64,000 nucleotides of DNA from Iodidimonas nitroreducens (GCA_000710935.1 BAYV01000015.1:62001-126000), one strand, 5' to 3'. Positions 49,997 through 57,072 are shown, counted from the stretch's first letter. Notes: generated from the letters alone by a model not told the origin. A program made the numbers and translations.

Positions 49997-51156
49997 GGCG
50001 CCGCATTCCTTTCCTGTTCGGTGATCTGATCAAGCTTTTTACGCACAGCGGTTTCATCATAATCGGCTTTTCGCTGAAAACGTGCAACGCCATCTTCAAC
50101 AGTGCGCGAGACAACGCCCAGCGCCAGCAGAAAATGCAGATGCGCCACCGCCTCGCCCGCCGCCATGGAAAATTCCATCCCCCGCACCCGGCGGCGAAAC
50201 AGCGCCGGGAAAATATCGATGGCAGTGGCCGGTTTTTCGCATAAAGCCACCACCCCATTCAGCCGCGACACATGCTTGTGGATCAGGGCATCGAGCCGTG
50301 CCCGAAGGCCATAGAAAGGCTCGTTATGGGAGGGCAGCACCAGCGTATCATCAGGCAGGGCCCGCAGGCGGGCAAGGCCGGTGAGCCATTCATCCAAAGG
50401 ATTGCCATCCGGCTCGGTGGGATAAACCGAAACATTGGAACTGATGCGCGGCAGCACCTGATCCCCCGAAATAAGGATTTTGCGATCCGGGCTATAAAGG
50501 CTGATATGCCCCGGCGCATGGCCTGCGGTTTCAATCAGATGCCATGATGTGCCGCCCAAGGAAAGGCGATCCCCGCCCGCCATCCTTTGATAGCCGATGG
50601 GCAGGGGCCAGACGACCTGATTGAAATTGCCCCAACCGCCAAGGCGGATTTTTTCGATCATCGCCTCGGTAAAGCCGGTGCGCCGGGCAAAATCCAAAGC
50701 TTCAGCAGGCGCTTCATCGCGAACATCAAGCAGCAGGCTGCGCGCCAGCAGATAGGCCGAGCGCGAGGCCAGAATCGGAGCCTTAAACTGTTCGGCCACC
50801 CAGCCCGCCAGCCCCAGATGATCGGGATGATGATGGGTCACAATCATGCGCGAGATGGGCCGACCCTGCAATTGATTGGCAAAGAGATCGCGCCACAAAG
50901 CGATGGCCTCATCGCTGCGCACCCCGGAATCGATGAGGGACCAGCTATCCCCCTCATCAATCAGATAAAGATTGATATGATCCAAAGACCAGGGAAGCGG
51001 CATCCGCAGCCAAGTGATGCCCGCCGCAATGGCATGGGTGCCTCCCGATGCGGGTGCATCCTTGATGGGATAGCGCAAGGCCCCCGCATCATCATCAGCG
51101 GCAGGCAGATGATGATCGGGATCGGGCGGGCGGGCGTGTACAGAGGGAGGGTTCAT
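49984..51156 (-). CDS. MBL-fold metallohydrolase
   Basis: 390 residues. The metal-binding HHHPDHLGLAGW motif follows a DEGDSWSLIDSGV start of the fold; further ligands are in ETAGHAPGHISLY and SGDQVLP, and in LPSHNEPFYGL. The C-terminal 100 residues are a helical extension found in LACTB2-type and related hydrolases. Likely acts on a thioester or ester linked to the acyl-CoA enzymes next to it; the substrate is not known. The start overlaps the 2OG-oxygenase stop. Confidence 0.85.
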   Translation of the reverse strand: MNPPSVHARPPDPDHHLPAADDDAGALRYPIKDAPASGGTHAIAAGITWLRMPLPWSLDHINLYLIDEGDSWSLIDSGVRSDEAIALWRDLFANQLQGRPISRMIVTHHHPDHLGLAGWVAEQFKAPILASRSAYLLARSLLLDVRDEAPAEALDFARRTGFTEAMIEKIRLGGWGNFNQVVWPLPIGYQRMAGGDRLSLGGTSWHLIETAGHAPGHISLYSPDRKILISGDQVLPRISSNVSVYPTEPDGNPLDEWLTGLARLRALPDDTLVLPSHNEPFYGLRARLDALIHKHVSRLNGVVALCEKPATAIDIFPALFRRRVRGMEFSMAAGEAVAHLHFLLALGVVSRTVEDGVARFQRKADYDETAVRKKLDQITEQERNAAPWAA

Positions 51157-51878
51157 GAGGCCTTCTCGTTCGAAGATTGGGCATCAATGGGGGCATCAAT
51201 GGGCGCATCAATGGGCGCTGGCACAAGGCTGAGATTGATCGCCACCGAAATCCGTTCAGCATCACCATGATAGGGCCGCACCGAATGCATCAGCCAGGAT
51301 GGAAACACCACCATTCGCCCTGTGGCCGGGCGGATATATTGCTCGCGGGCCTGCACGCCCTCGCGGCTGTCTTTCAGCCAGATATCGGGCGCATACATGG
51401 CATTCATCGGATAGCGCGGATCATAAAGAACCAGTTCGCCCCCTAAGGCCGGATCCTTTGACCCCTGATAGCCATCTTCGACATAATAAACCGCCGACCA
51501 TAAAGCCCCGGGATGGGCATGGCCCTGATTGGATGCCCCGCGCATCGACAGATTGGCCCACATATCAAATGACCAGATAAAGCGCGGCGGCGCATCGGCC
51601 ACGGCCCCGCTATCATGGATCTGCAGATCGCACAGCCTGATCAGATGGCGCAACAGATCCGCCGCCGCCTCGCCGCCCCATTCGATCATGTTCGTATCGG
51701 AATGCCAGCCCAGAATATTGGAGCGCGCAATCCCCTGATGCCCCTGCCGCCGGGCGTGGATGAGCGGGACGAGCGCGGCATTGATCGCCGCCGCCCCTGC
51801 AAGCTTCGAGACGATCACCGGCGTTTCAAACAGGCCCAGAACCCGGCGATCAAGGGCGAATGAAGGGGCCTCCGTCAC
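51153..51878 (-). CDS. TIGR02466-type 2OG-Fe(II) oxygenase
   Basis: 241 residues. The jelly-roll motif GHAHPGALWSAVYYVEDG and FPSWLMHSVRPYHGDAERIS with VAINLS are hallmarks of TIGR02466 putative 2OG-Fe(II) oxygenases: histidines for iron and an Arg for 2-oxoglutarate. The tail holds three APID units from a 12-base tandem repeat. The start is a GTG overlapping the acyl-CoA dehydrogenase stop, with AGGAGG nine bases upstream. Role in the acyl-CoA cluster is unknown. Confidence 0.85.
   Translation of the reverse strand: MTEAPSFALDRRVLGLFETPVIVSKLAGAAAINAALVPLIHARRQGHQGIARSNILGWHSDTNMIEWGGEAAADLLRHLIRLCDLQIHDSGAVADAPPRFIWSFDMWANLSMRGASNQGHAHPGALWSAVYYVEDGYQGSKDPALGGELVLYDPRYPMNAMYAPDIWLKDSREGVQAREQYIRPATGRMVVFPSWLMHSVRPYHGDAERISVAINLSLVPAPIDAPIDAPIDAQSSNEKAS
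51181..51216. repeat. Three 12-base tandem repeats in the oxygenase gene
   Basis: GCATCAATGGGC-type units start at 51181, 51193 and 51205 with one base change in the first. They encode APID repeats on the minus strand at the C-terminus. The period is a multiple of three, so copy-number change would not shift the frame. Confidence 0.75.
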
Positions 51879-53671
51879 GCCGCAAAATCCTCCTCGTCAA
51901 GGGCATAAAGCAGTGCCGATCCCCGGGTCACCGGGCCTAAAAGGGCGGTGGCGGGGGGCAAAAGCTGCTCGGCAAAAAATCGGGCGGTGGTGATCTTGGC
52001 TTTCAAAAAGGCGGGGTCGCCTTCGCCCGCATCCAGCCGCTCCTGCGCCGCCATGGCCTGCTTCATCAGCAGCCAGCCGCCCACAACCGCCCCGAACATC
52101 CGCAGGAAAGGAGCCGCCCCCGCCGCCGTATCGCGCATCTTGTCGGCATCATTGCCGCTCAGCCAGATCGCGGCATTTTGCAGGGCATCAAGCCCATCCT
52201 CCAGATAAGGGGCCAAAAGGCCCAGATCCCCTTGGGATGGCAGATCGCCCAGATCATCCCGGATCTGTTGGAACAGTTCGCGCCAATGCAGGCCCCCCTC
52301 CATCATCAGCTTGCGCCCCACCAGATCCATCGCCTGAATGCCATTGGTGCCTTCATAAATGGGGGCAATCCGGGCATCCCGATAATGCTGGGCGACGCCG
52401 GTTTCCTCAACATAGCCCATGCCGCCATGAATCTGGATCGCCAAAGATGTGGTTTCCACCCCCAGATCGGTGGCAAAGGCCTTGGTCACCGGGGTGAGCA
52501 GATCGGCCAGCCCCTGCGCCGCTTTGCGTTCATCATCGCTGGCCCCGAAATGGGCGCGATCCACCGCCGCCGCATTATAATAGGCAAGCGCCCGCACCGC
52601 TTCGGTATTGGCTTTCATGGTCATCAGCATCCGCCGCACATCGGCATGGCGAATGATCGGCACGCCATCGCCGCCGGGCTGGCTGATATCGGCGGATTGC
52701 ACCCGATCCCGGGCATAGGCCACCGCCTGCTGATAGGCGCGTTCGGCGATGGAAACCCCCTGCAGCCCCACATTGATGCGGGCGTGGTTCATCATGGTGA
52801 ACATGCAGCGCATCCCGCGATTTTCCTCGCCCACCAGCCAGCCGATGGCGCCCCCCTCATCGCCGAACTGCAAAACACAGGTGGGGCTGGCATGAATGCC
52901 CAGTTTATGTTCAAGGCTCACACAGGTGACATCATTGCGCGCCCCGGGGCGGCCCTCCGCATCGGGCAAAAATTTGGGCACCACAAACAGCGAAATGCCC
53001 TTGGTGCCCGCCGGCGCACCGGGGGTACGGGCCAGCACCAGATGGATGATATTTTCGGCCATATCATGATCACCCCAGGTGATATAGATTTTCTGGCCGA
53101 ATATCTTCCAGCTTCCATCGTCATTGGGTTCGGCCCGGCTTTTCAGGGCCCCCACATCCGATCCCGCCTGCGGCTCGGTGAGGTTCATGGTCCCGGTCCA
53201 TTCGCCGGTCACCAGCTTTTCCAGATACAGCGCCTTCAATGCATCCGAGCCATGATGGGTCAGCGCCTCGATGGCGCCTTGTGTCAGCATCGGGCACAGG
53301 GAAAAGGCCATATTCGCCGCCGTCCATGTTTCCTGAACCGCCAAAGCCAGCGCAAAAGGCAGGCCCTGCCCGCCCCAATCGGGGCTGAAGGAGAGGCCGT
53401 TCCAGCCGCCATCCACATATTGACGATAGGCATCGGCAAAGCCATCCGGCGTCACCACCTTGCCATCCACAAGGCGCGATCCTTCAAGATCGCCCTTGCG
53501 ATTGAGAGGGGCAATCACCTGCGCTGACAATTTCGCCGCTTCTTCGATCACCGCAAGCATCACATCGGGCGTGGCATCGACAAAAGCATCAAGGCGGGTC
53601 AGCGACGGCCAATCACAGATGGTTTCCAAAGTGAACTGAATATCCTTCACCGGGGCGCGATAGCTGGTCAT
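51875..53671 (-). CDS. Acyl-CoA dehydrogenase with C-terminal extension (DmdC-like)
   Basis: 598 residues. It begins MTSYRAPVKDIQFTLETI, typical of the DmdC (3-methylmercaptopropionyl-CoA dehydrogenase) group. FAD/substrate segments include MNLTEPQAGSDVGALKSRA and FGQKIYITWGDHDMAENIIH, and the active-site region is APIYEGTNGIQAMDLV with the catalytic Glu. A C-terminal 130-residue domain is present. Substrate could be fatty acyl-CoA; nothing else here speaks for DMSP use. AAGGA precedes the ATG. First gene of the cluster. Confidence 0.9.
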   Translation of the reverse strand: MTSYRAPVKDIQFTLETICDWPSLTRLDAFVDATPDVMLAVIEEAAKLSAQVIAPLNRKGDLEGSRLVDGKVVTPDGFADAYRQYVDGGWNGLSFSPDWGGQGLPFALALAVQETWTAANMAFSLCPMLTQGAIEALTHHGSDALKALYLEKLVTGEWTGTMNLTEPQAGSDVGALKSRAEPNDDGSWKIFGQKIYITWGDHDMAENIIHLVLARTPGAPAGTKGISLFVVPKFLPDAEGRPGARNDVTCVSLEHKLGIHASPTCVLQFGDEGGAIGWLVGEENRGMRCMFTMMNHARINVGLQGVSIAERAYQQAVAYARDRVQSADISQPGGDGVPIIRHADVRRMLMTMKANTEAVRALAYYNAAAVDRAHFGASDDERKAAQGLADLLTPVTKAFATDLGVETTSLAIQIHGGMGYVEETGVAQHYRDARIAPIYEGTNGIQAMDLVGRKLMMEGGLHWRELFQQIRDDLGDLPSQGDLGLLAPYLEDGLDALQNAAIWLSGNDADKMRDTAAGAAPFLRMFGAVVGGWLLMKQAMAAQERLDAGEGDPAFLKAKITTARFFAEQLLPPATALLGPVTRGSALLYALDEEDFAA

Positions 53672-53907: not shown

Positions 53908-54897
53908 ATGAGCACTGACAAGGCCATCTTGGATGCTGCCCGGATCCTGCGCCGGGGCGGGCTGGTGGCAATCCCCACCGAAACGGTCTATGGGCTGGCG
54001 GCTGATGCCACCAATCCCAAAGCCGTGGCCCGGATTTTCGCCACCAAAGGGCGGCCCGGCTTCAATCCCCTCATCTGCCATGTGCCCGCACCGGAAGATG
54101 CTGCCCGGATCGCCCGCATCAGCCCCCTGGCGGATCGCCTGATCACCGCCTTCTGGCCCGGACCGCTGACTTTGGTGCTGCCCCAAAGGCCCGATAGCCC
54201 CCTTGCCGATCTGGTGAGCGCCGGGCTGCCCTCGGTCGGGATCAGGATGCCAGCCCATCCCATGGCTTTGGCCCTGCTGCGCCAGACCGGGCGGCCATTG
54301 GCGGCCCCCAGCGCCAATCGATCCGGCGCGATCAGCCCCACCACGGCCCGGCATGTGGCCGATGATCTGGGCAAGGATGTGGATATGATCCTTGATGGCG
54401 GGCCCTGTAGCCTGGGCCTTGAAAGCACCATCATCGGGCTGCCGGATGATGGAACCGACCGGCTGCTTTTGCTCCGGCCCGGCGGCATCACCCCCGATCA
54501 GATCGCTGAAATCTGCGGCATCAGGCCAGAAGCGGATCAAAGCGGGGCTATCACCGCACCGGGGCAGTTGCTCAGCCATTATGCCCCGCGCGGCCAATTA
54601 CGGCTCGATGCCATCAGGGCCGGGGATGGCGAATTCATGATCGGATTTGGTGCCATCGGGGGCGATCTCAATTTAAGCCCCAAGGGCGACCTGATCGAGG
54701 CGGCAGCCGGGCTTTTCGCCGCTTTGCGCCAAGCGGATGACAGCGGCGCCTCAGGGCTTGCCATCGCCCCCATTCCCGATCATGGCCTGGGCCTTGCCAT
54801 CAATGATCGCCTCCGCCGGGCGGCTGCGCCCCGGCCGGCAAAATCCGACAAGGGGCGGGCGGCTGCGCCCCGGCCAGCAGACTCCGAAAGGGATTAA
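53908..54897 (+). CDS. tsaC: L-threonylcarbamoyladenylate synthase
   Basis: Makes the precursor of the t6A tRNA modification from threonine, bicarbonate and ATP. The 329-residue protein has the YrdC fold (LRRGGLVAIPTETVYGLAAD, KGRPGFNPLICHV, PAPSANRSGAISPTTA) plus a Sua5-type C-terminal half (APGQLLSHYAPRGQLRLDA). The last 26 residues come from a duplicated 39-base unit. The ATG at 53908 has no strong ribosome site. The gene leads into a membrane protein and two oxygenases, all in close spacing. Confidence 0.93.
   Translation: MSTDKAILDAARILRRGGLVAIPTETVYGLAADATNPKAVARIFATKGRPGFNPLICHVPAPEDAARIARISPLADRLITAFWPGPLTLVLPQRPDSPLADLVSAGLPSVGIRMPAHPMALALLRQTGRPLAAPSANRSGAISPTTARHVADDLGKDVDMILDGGPCSLGLESTIIGLPDDGTDRLLLLRPGGITPDQIAEICGIRPEADQSGAITAPGQLLSHYAPRGQLRLDAIRAGDGEFMIGFGAIGGDLNLSPKGDLIEAAAGLFAALRQADDSGASGLAIAPIPDHGLGLAINDRLRRAAAPRPAKSDKGRAAAPRPADSERD
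54818..54895 (+). repeat. 39-base tandem duplication at the end of tsaC
   Basis: Two copies (54818-54856 and 54857-54895) begin GGGCGGCTGCGCCCCGGCC and encode RAAAPRPAKSDKG and RAAAPRPADSERD. The unit is 13 codons, so the frame is kept; the second copy has drifted. It lengthens the protein's Ala/Pro tail. Confidence 0.7.
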
Positions 54898-54902
54898 ATG
54901 CC

Positions 54903-55568
54903 GTGATTAAAAACCCCCGGCTTCTTATCCATGCCCTGATCGGGCTGATTGTGGGCACCCTTCTGGCCTCAGCCATCCAAGCGGGTGAGAATATCCTGCG
55001 CTATCTGGTGCAGCCCGTTTGGCTTGAGGGCGCGGCACTTCTGGCCCTTTTGGTGGCGGGCGCGGCCCTTGGGGGGCTGATCATCGGCGGCTCCATCGGT
55101 TTTGCCATCCGCTTTGGTTTGAGACGAGAAGGGCATGGGCGATGCCTCGTCATCTGGCCGATGATCGCAGGGTTTGCCATCAGTTTTATGCTCGACCCCT
55201 ATTTTCTGGCGGCCATGGGCTGGCGCGGGCCGGTGATGCTGGAAGGGCTGGCACGCGGGCTGGCACTTGTGCCCGCCATCATCGCCCTTGTTTGGGCTGC
55301 CCATCGTCTTGACAGGCTGCCCCCACGGGCTTTGTTTCTGTTGGTTGTGGCCCTGATCGAAGCGGCGGTGATCCATGGCGCGGTCGATCGCTTCAGCCTG
55401 ATCCCCATTTTGGGGGGTGATCTCGATCTCGCCCTGCTCTCCCCCATCCATAGTCTGGTTTTTTTAAGGGGCATGCTGTTTCTTCTGATCGCCTATCGGT
55501 TTATTGGGATCGTGATCGCGCGCCTGTTTCCAACGGATGCCATTTTGTGCGAAACAAAGGAGCCATGA
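54903..55568 (+). CDS. Hypothetical membrane protein in the oxygenase cluster
   Basis: 221 residues, not recognised. It starts with GTG (MIKNPRLLIHALIGLIVGTL) and has five to six hydrophobic segments, including LLALLVAGAALGGLIIGGSI and FLVVALIEAAV-type helices. The loops carry Arg. There are no metal motifs. It follows tsaC by five bases and overlaps the first oxygenase by four bases, so it is very likely part of that operon. Whether it serves as scaffold or transporter is unknown. Confidence 0.7.
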   Translation: MIKNPRLLIHALIGLIVGTLLASAIQAGENILRYLVQPVWLEGAALLALLVAGAALGGLIIGGSIGFAIRFGLRREGHGRCLVIWPMIAGFAISFMLDPYFLAAMGWRGPVMLEGLARGLALVPAIIALVWAAHRLDRLPPRALFLLVVALIEAAVIHGAVDRFSLIPILGGDLDLALLSPIHSLVFLRGMLFLLIAYRFIGIVIARLFPTDAILCETKEP

Positions 55569-56329
55569 ACATGGCCATCCCCTCTTCAGCAGCAAATGCC
55601 CCGGCTTTCCGGCTCAACCCCGCATTGGATCGGGCGGCGATTGCGGCAGACCTCGCCAAACACCGCCGGGTGCAGATCAGCAATGTGCTGGCCCCCGAAT
55701 GTGCTGAAAGGCTGGCCCATTGCCTTGAAGCCGAAACGCCATGGTCCTTCACCTGGTTTGATGGCGAAGCCGCCTGCATCCTCGATCATCAGGATATGGC
55801 CAAAGTCAGCCCTGAAAAATGGAGCCAATTACAGCGCGATCTGTTTTTGCTGGCCCGGGATCGCTTCAGCTATGCCTATGGATTTTATCCCTTGCAGGAA
55901 TCGGTGCGCCTTGATCGCGACCGGCATCTTTATCTGCTTTCATTTTTCGATTTTCTGCAAGGGCCGCAGATGATCGGCCTGATCCGCGATCTTTTGGGCG
56001 ATGAAGCGGTGGTAAAAGCCGATGCGCAGGCCACCCGCTTTGGCCCCGGACAATATCTGACCTATCACAATGATCATGTGCCCAAAAGCCACCGCCGCTG
56101 TGCCTATGTCTTTAATTTCACAAGGCGCTGGCGGCCTGATTGGGGCGGCTATCTGCAATTTTTTGATGATCTGGGCAATGGCCAAACCGCCTATAAACCC
56201 GATTTCAACAAGCTCAATCTGTTTCTCGTGCCCCAGCCCCATGCAGTGACGTTCATTCCCCCCTTTGCGGGCGGTTATCGCTATGCCATATCGGGCTGGT
56301 ATCGCGCCAAGGAGCCCGCTTCATCATGA
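55565..56329 (+). CDS. 2OG-Fe(II) oxygenase, copy A
   Basis: 254 residues. His168, Asp170 and His226 make the iron facial triad (LTYHNDHVPKSHRRCAYVF, QPHAVTF), and Arg239 should bind 2-oxoglutarate. WRPDWGGYLQFFDD is the prolyl-hydroxylase/Tpa1-like double-stranded-helix core. Start ATG at 55565 has AAAGGAG upstream. The gene overlaps the membrane protein and copy B by four bases each. It is predicted to hydroxylate a protein side chain, perhaps proline; the target is unknown. Paralogy with copy B is clear. Confidence 0.85.
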   Translation: MNMAIPSSAANAPAFRLNPALDRAAIAADLAKHRRVQISNVLAPECAERLAHCLEAETPWSFTWFDGEAACILDHQDMAKVSPEKWSQLQRDLFLLARDRFSYAYGFYPLQESVRLDRDRHLYLLSFFDFLQGPQMIGLIRDLLGDEAVVKADAQATRFGPGQYLTYHNDHVPKSHRRCAYVFNFTRRWRPDWGGYLQFFDDLGNGQTAYKPDFNKLNLFLVPQPHAVTFIPPFAGGYRYAISGWYRAKEPASS

Positions 56330-57072
56330 CCCGCCCCCCATCCGCCATCGATCTTGGCGATCTGTTTCGCCTCAATCCCGCGCTTGACAGACCCGCCCTT
56401 GCCCGCCAATTCGTGGAACAGGGCGAGCGGATCCAGATCAACGATATTCTAAGCCCTGAGAGCGCCGCCCGGCTTTATCAGATTTTGGGCCAGCAAACCC
56501 CATGGGGCATCGCCTATTATGATGGGGCGCATCACTTCATCCGGCGCGAGGAGATTGCGGCCAAAAAGCCCGATGAATTGGCCGCAATCAACAGCCGCCT
56601 GATGGCCCGGGCGCGCCATGATTACAGCTATTTCTATTTCTGCTATCCCATGCTGCAGGCTTATTTGGAGCAGTGGCAGCCCGATCATCTTCTGATGCGC
56701 TTTTTGGAATTTCTCAATAGCGCGCCGATGCTTGATCTGATCCGCGAGATTTCAGGCCTTGCCGCGATCATCAAGGCGGATGCCCAAGCCACATTCTATA
56801 GCCAGAATCATTTTTTGCTCCATCATCGCGATGAGGTGGAAAAAGAACATCGCAGGCTTGCCTATGTCTTTGGCTTCACCCCCGAATGGCGGACGGATTG
56901 GGGCGGCTATCTCAATTTTTTCGATGAAAGAGGGGATATCACATGGGGCCTGATACCGCGCTTTAATGTGCTCAATCTTTTTGCCACGCGCCATCCCCAT
57001 GCGGTGGGCCAGGTGGCCCCCTTTGCCGGGGCGCCCCGGCTCTCGATCACCGGCTGGTATCGCGATCAATAA
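56326..57072 (+). CDS. 2OG-Fe(II) oxygenase, copy B
   Basis: 248 residues, paralog of the preceding gene. The triad is His167, Asp169 and His225 (LLHHRDEVEKEHRRLAYVF, HPHAVGQ), and Arg238 for 2-oxoglutarate; WRTDWGGYLNFFDE and FNVLNLF also match copy A. Both start with an FRLNPALDR stretch. The two differ enough (helical residues 60-150) to suggest different substrates. The start overlaps the stop of copy A. It converges on cpdR, six bases apart, with no terminator seen. Confidence 0.85.
   Translation: MTRPPSAIDLGDLFRLNPALDRPALARQFVEQGERIQINDILSPESAARLYQILGQQTPWGIAYYDGAHHFIRREEIAAKKPDELAAINSRLMARARHDYSYFYFCYPMLQAYLEQWQPDHLLMRFLEFLNSAPMLDLIREISGLAAIIKADAQATFYSQNHFLLHHRDEVEKEHRRLAYVFGFTPEWRTDWGGYLNFFDERGDITWGLIPRFNVLNLFATRHPHAVGQVAPFAGAPRLSITGWYRDQ

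Follow-up and report, generated by a model that had tools for sequence, protein, structure and literature searches.

Two prolyl-hydroxylase-like oxygenases of different lineages beside tsaC in Iodidimonas, probable neighbors through inherited gene order

Introduction

Why do two Fe(II)/2OG oxygenases lie in an overlapping run of genes directly downstream of tsaC, the gene for t6A synthesis, in an Iodidimonas genome? The window analyzed here (64,000 nucleotides) contains a block in the order tsaC, a membrane protein gene (MEM), oxygenase A, and oxygenase B, all on the plus strand and with spacings of +5, -4, and -4 bases. The first-pass annotation of this DNA read the block as a translation-related hydroxylation module linked to t6A synthesis and possibly tethered to the membrane. 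A literature search recovered no published description of a tsaC-oxygenase neighborhood. Our comparison of the locus with related genomes leads to a different answer: A and B are probably single-domain protein hydroxylases resembling prolyl 3-hydroxylases, and neighbors of tsaC through inherited gene order.

Results and Discussion

Organization of the locus

The tsaC gene (53908 to 54897, plus strand) encodes an L-threonylcarbamoyladenylate synthase with a YrdC domain and a Sua5 C-terminal domain (193.9 bits to PF01300, 68.9 bits to Sua5_C, and 176.3 bits to the equivalog TIGR00057 against a cut-off of 123.2), and it is the sole PF01300 gene found in the 3.08-Mb genome. MEM (54903 to 55568, plus strand; 221 amino acids, with six predicted membrane helices and outside known families) begins at a GTG at 54903, leaving a 5-base gap after tsaC. 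Oxygenase A (55565 to 56329, plus strand; 254 amino acids) begins at an ATG at 55565 that has a GGAG shortly upstream and overlaps MEM by 4 bases, and oxygenase B (56326 to 57072, plus strand; 248 amino acids), a paralog of A from another lineage, begins at an ATG at 56326 and overlaps A by 4 bases. The coordinates, strands, order, and spacings given for the four genes in the first-pass annotation are all confirmed.

Diverging from tsaC on its left is a gene resembling acyl-CoA dehydrogenases (51875 to 53671, minus strand; 598 amino acids), which was named from its own sequence and from homologs and which is conserved at the left edge of tsaC neighborhoods across the order. A third 2OG oxygenase (PF13759, TIGR02466; 51153 to 51878, minus strand) lies 2 kb from tsaC, between a gene for a beta-lactamase-like hydrolase and the acyl-CoA dehydrogenase gene; it was not seen at the corresponding place in I. 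muriae or in the relative G001, and its PF13759 domain recurs in TonB cassettes of the relatives of A and B.

Among the genomes compared, the exact four-gene block was seen in the window only. The closest named loci belong to Iodidimonas muriae JCM 17843 and to the uncultured "Sphingomonadales" bacterium N2E045-3Z, and we infer that the window belongs to a congener of I. muriae and not to I. muriae itself. The I. muriae locus has tsaC, MEM, and A in that order, a gap of 8 bases separating MEM from A, and B is missing; given this close spacing, co-transcription of tsaC, MEM, and A could extend beyond the window species, a point against the account proposed here.

Residues and family of the oxygenases

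Both oxygenases are single-domain members of PF13661 (62.4 bits for A and 80.1 bits for B against a curated cut-off of 27), and they share 44% identity over 244 columns (E value of 2e-66). Their metal ligands (H168, D170, and H226 in A; H167, D169, and H225 in B) and 2OG arginine (R239 in A; R238 in B) are intact, consistent with the earlier description of the pair as paralogs that keep all catalytic residues. In an alignment of 55 sequences, the metal-ligand columns are invariant as H, D, and H, and the 2OG-arginine column is at least 90% conserved.

The first-pass annotation also proposed kinship to Tpa1/OGFOD1 and to PPHD, and this is borne out by both profile and fold. A search of the 55-sequence profile against the PDB recovered OGFOD1 (1.7e-17), Tpa1 (3e-11), PPHD (4.8e-8), and EGLN (about 1e-4), and the AlphaFold2 model of A (mean pLDDT of 96.2) matched Tpa1 (Z score of 22.8; 2.6 Å over 200 residues), OGFOD1 (21.6), PPHD (20.7), and PHD2 (19.7); the closeness of OGFOD1/Tpa1 is a ranking among the solved prolyl hydroxylases in the PDB, with families that have no structures falling outside the comparison.

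Prolyl 4-hydroxylases share a tyrosine at a position where prolyl 3-hydroxylases have a leucine (Leu152 in OGFOD1), and an arginine at the mouth of the active site is common to all these prolyl hydroxylases (PMC4396695). The leucine is present three residues before the HxD motif in both enzymes (L165 in A and L164 in B) and is kept in 121 of 126 relatives, and the substrate-arginine position is R177 in A and R176 in B, with arginine kept in 102 of the 126; the same study cautions that the leucine alone does not fix regioselectivity (PMC4396695). We propose that A and B are catalytically competent Fe(II)/2OG hydroxylases within the prolyl-hydroxylase branch, where the catalytic domain of OGFOD1/Tpa1 is their nearest relation. 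In each enzyme HxD...H would probably hold the Fe(II) and the late arginine the 2OG, and the probable target is a protein or peptide residue, with C-3 of a proline as the likeliest site.

The tsaC neighborhood across the order

In relatives from the order, the common arrangement is a diverging acyl-CoA dehydrogenase gene, tsaC, a gene for an FAD-linked oxidase, often an S10-type peptidase gene on the opposite strand, and one to three oxygenases, followed in family f2 by a second acyl-CoA dehydrogenase gene. Some cases preserve parts of this order: in G037, the FAD oxidase gene adjoins an oxygenase on a contig without tsaC, and in G018 (family f7), each of two contigs breaks off in half of a peptidase gene, with tsaC and the FAD oxidase on the first contig and two oxygenases on the second, so that together they look like one locus. 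The pair of tsaC and FAD oxidase also occurs with no oxygenase at that place, for example in G014, G007, G009, G016, G019, and G038. Linkage between tsaC and the oxygenases recurs in f1 (the family of the window itself) and f2, and probably in f7, and is not due to chance. Because relatives have the order tsaC, FAD oxidase, opposite-strand peptidase, and oxygenase or oxygenases, the tight block of the window reflects local rearrangement within an older neighborhood and is not evidence of one shared machine.

A and B would sit next to tsaC because the old neighborhood of the order, comprising the acyl-CoA dehydrogenase, tsaC, the FAD-linked oxidase, the opposite-strand peptidase, and the oxygenases, was inherited. 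In Iodidimonas the FAD oxidase is missing from the locus, and in the window species and I. muriae the peptidase is missing as well. The absence of these two genes, presumably through gene loss, would leave the oxygenases against MEM and produce the tight block, and A and B would share no function with t6A synthesis.

Distribution and gene contexts of the oxygenase family

Among 100 relatives, 36 carry the oxygenase family and 95 carry tsaC; for 298 genomes of the order, the counts are 97 and 296. Since tsaC is nearly universal, its co-occurrence with the oxygenases by presence carries no information. An oxygenase lies within a few kilobases of tsaC in 7 of the 36 family-bearing genomes of the 100-relative survey (G000, G001, G002, and G006 in f1; G020, G025, and G034 in f2), and none was close to tsaC among the roughly two dozen f6 genomes for which the 298-genome survey listed both genes and where distances were judged by eye. 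Across 84,980 genomes we confirmed 309 oxygenase loci, in alpha- and gammaproteobacteria, from which 80 named loci were kept for context counts; the neighbors of these 80 were TonB receptors (23 loci), PF13759 TPR-oxygenases (21), methyltransferases (13), TPR-sulfotransferases (11), RlmN (8), and tsaC (3, all from Iodidimonas and its kin). Homologs of A and B thus lie mostly far from tsaC, at odds with the idea that the oxygenases are tied to this gene and in line with the outcome that the first-pass annotation itself named as refuting its proposal, and with the family mostly elsewhere and the block local, a four-gene translation module linked to t6A synthesis finds no support.

Copy number ranges from 0 to 8 per genome, and the 1.9-Mb genome of G025 (L057, L059, L060, and L078) carries eight copies. 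At three loci RlmN is directly followed by one to three oxygenases (L057:7708-11246, L094:3-1807, and L096:32-2111), the genes overlapping by 4 bases in two genomes; these loci are part of a conserved alphaproteobacterial clade linked to rlmN, argG, and folD.

Lineages, metal-site loss, and alternative functions

A phylogenetic analysis of 49 rows placed A in an f1 clade (100/100) together with an unlinked copy from G004 and a Lysobacterales MAG, and placed B with its G001 orthologue (100/99) among TonB-linked copies (96/93). A clade of twelve rows (100/99), drawn from Caulobacter, Marinicaulis, Kordiimonas, f1, f2, and f7, takes in most of the rlmN-linked copies. The earlier description of A and B as twins holds for their kinship, but the local duplication that it implied does not agree with their positions in different lineages. 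In AU tests on the same 49 rows, origin of A and B by local tandem duplication, as a single f1 clade holding both, was weakly rejected (p-AU of 0.029), and one origin for all tsaC-linked copies was rejected (p-AU of 1.8e-14, to which the long branches of the pseudo-oxygenases may contribute). With A and B in separate lineages and a single tsaC-linked clade rejected, the tsaC locus has held oxygenases of several lineages, through either selection for translation neighbors or a tolerant insertion site. A and B, being of different lineages, probably act on different substrates, and the kin of B sit in TonB-receptor cassettes.

Six full-length relatives among the 126, one each in G018, G034, G012, G025, G037, and G020, have no metal ligands (the loci, in an order independent of the genome list, are L059:5078-5788, L079:4953-5666, L080:5170-5907, L093:1086-1778, L045:830-1564, and L074:6268-6987). 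These pseudo-oxygenases form one clade (98/96), although its exact extent is less certain because of their long branches, and five of them are in, or probably in, the tsaC neighborhood of relatives. The pseudo-oxygenase adjoins intact copies in G025 and G018. A second open reading frame beside the G037 pseudo-oxygenase proved not to be an oxygenase relative.

One alternative to inherited gene order is a role in translation: the target of A and B would be a residue, prolyl or other, in a decoding-center or elongation protein (uS12 or EF-Tu, for instance), and selection for co-expression would keep the genes near tsaC and rlmN. The nearest characterized family by profile and fold is the uS12 prolyl hydroxylase OGFOD1/Tpa1, the leucine is of the P3H type, and the recurrence of tsaC neighborhoods in f1, f2, and probably f7, together with rlmN neighborhoods that span several alphaproteobacterial families and fall mostly in one well-supported clade, could reflect a real role in translation. 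However, most oxygenase copies lie elsewhere, a copy number that varies so widely would be odd for a core translation mark, the lineage of B is TonB linked, an opposite-strand gene interrupts the run from tsaC to the oxygenases in G001, G020, and probably G018 and so breaks the operon, and the lineage at the tsaC locus of f2 and f7 has lost its metal ligands. We regard this alternative as unlikely, while granting it some weight.

A further alternative, suggested by the cassettes of the wider family, is envelope or peptide tailoring, in which the substrate would be a peptide that is secreted, related to the TonB system, or ribosomally synthesized; the family would act in company with TPR-oxygenases, sulfotransferases, and methyltransferases, and the copies next to tsaC would have been relocated. 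Cassettes with TonB receptors, PF13759 oxygenases, AspH-type hydroxylases, sulfotransferases, and methyltransferases are recurrent, B groups with their copies, a PF13759-type oxygenase lies 2 kb away at 51153 to 51878, and A has a weak similarity to the NCBIfam cyclophane-peptide oxygenase (21.8 bits, against a cut-off of 150). Yet the immediate surroundings of A and B showed no TonB receptor and no sulfotransferase, and the clade of A itself is without such a context, making this a decidedly unlikely account of the pair.

A more speculative proposal, to which we assign a low probability, would see in the family the single-domain bacterial equivalent of OGFOD1/Tpa1, with uS12 or a different decoding-center protein as its substrate and tsaC and rlmN as functional neighbors; the tsaC-locus copies in related families might then be inactive partner subunits, comparable to the dead C-terminal domain of OGFOD1.

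The membrane protein

MEM has six hydrophobic segments in a hydropathy scan, conserved DPYYLAxLGW and RFxLVPxLGGD..PIHxLVF motifs, no match in Pfam or NCBIfam, and a structure model too poor for a fold search (pLDDT of 57.5). It was found only in f1 (6 of the 100 relatives), always near tsaC or the FAD oxidase, and was not found in f2, where oxygenases also sit at tsaC. In G004, a member of f1, MEM follows tsaC at a locus without an oxygenase, the sole oxygenase of that genome being about 800 kb away; in G005, where no oxygenase was detected, it borders the FAD oxidase on a short contig; in G001 the opposite-strand peptidase gene lies between MEM and the oxygenases, and in G006 other genes do. 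Because MEM stands beside tsaC in G004 and beside the FAD oxidase in G005 without oxygenases and is separated from them in G001, it goes with the tsaC locus and not with the oxygenases. That MEM anchors the oxygenases or TsaC in a module whose four members all act together, as the suggested membrane tether would have it, is highly improbable despite the tight spacing in the window and I. muriae, given that MEM occurs apart from oxygenases in G004 and G005, is separated from them by other genes in G001 and G006, and was not found outside one family. In G012 a 259-amino-acid membrane protein (L086:6784-7563, minus strand) lies between tsaC and the FAD oxidase, the place held by MEM in f1; no homology between the two was found.

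Comparison with known systems

The locus carries a warning for annotation, in that a tight overlap of genes in one genome can result from local gene loss. Its components can each be set beside known systems. The tsaC product is an ordinary Sua5-type TsaC with both domains present, differing in a short low-complexity C-terminal tail beyond the Sua5 domain in which the unit RAAAPRPA(K/D)S is repeated (54826 to 54894, plus strand). The 2OG oxygenases of TonB cassettes in sphingomonads and Kordiimonas belong to the same sequence family (PF13661), and it is with these that B groups, but the gene surroundings differ, there being no TonB receptor beside A and B.

PPHD, the Pseudomonas EF-Tu prolyl 4-hydroxylase (PDB 4iw3 and 4j25), shares the single-domain bacterial fold and the catalytic residues, although its profile match is weaker than that of OGFOD1, and A and B carry leucine where PPHD and other prolyl 4-hydroxylases share a tyrosine (Tyr310 in PHD2).

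The best match to the family of A and B in both profile and fold is with the uS12 prolyl hydroxylases OGFOD1, Tpa1, and Ofd1 (PDB 4nhx, 4nhk, and 3kt4). Shared features are the HxD...H triad, the 2OG arginine, the P3H-type leucine three residues before HxD, and an arginine at the position of PHD2 Arg322. A and B are bacterial proteins of one domain each, in contrast to the tandem DSBH architecture of OGFOD1/Tpa1, in which the C-terminal domain is noncatalytic. In a sequence alignment to OGFOD1, the 2OG-binding tyrosine of OGFOD1 and PHD2 (Tyr169 in OGFOD1, Tyr173 in Tpa1) is replaced by asparagine in A (N184) and by glycine in B (G183), a substitution suggesting that cofactor binding by A and B is not identical to that in OGFOD1 and PHD2. 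Prolyl hydroxylases of the OGFOD1 type have been reported in eukaryotes only, with single-domain prolyl hydroxylases as a possible point of branching (PMC4396695). The family of A and B is a testable candidate for that ancestral stock: it is single-domain, widespread in proteobacteria, and closest among solved proteins to OGFOD1 and Tpa1, and it has active copies paired with copies that lack the metal site.
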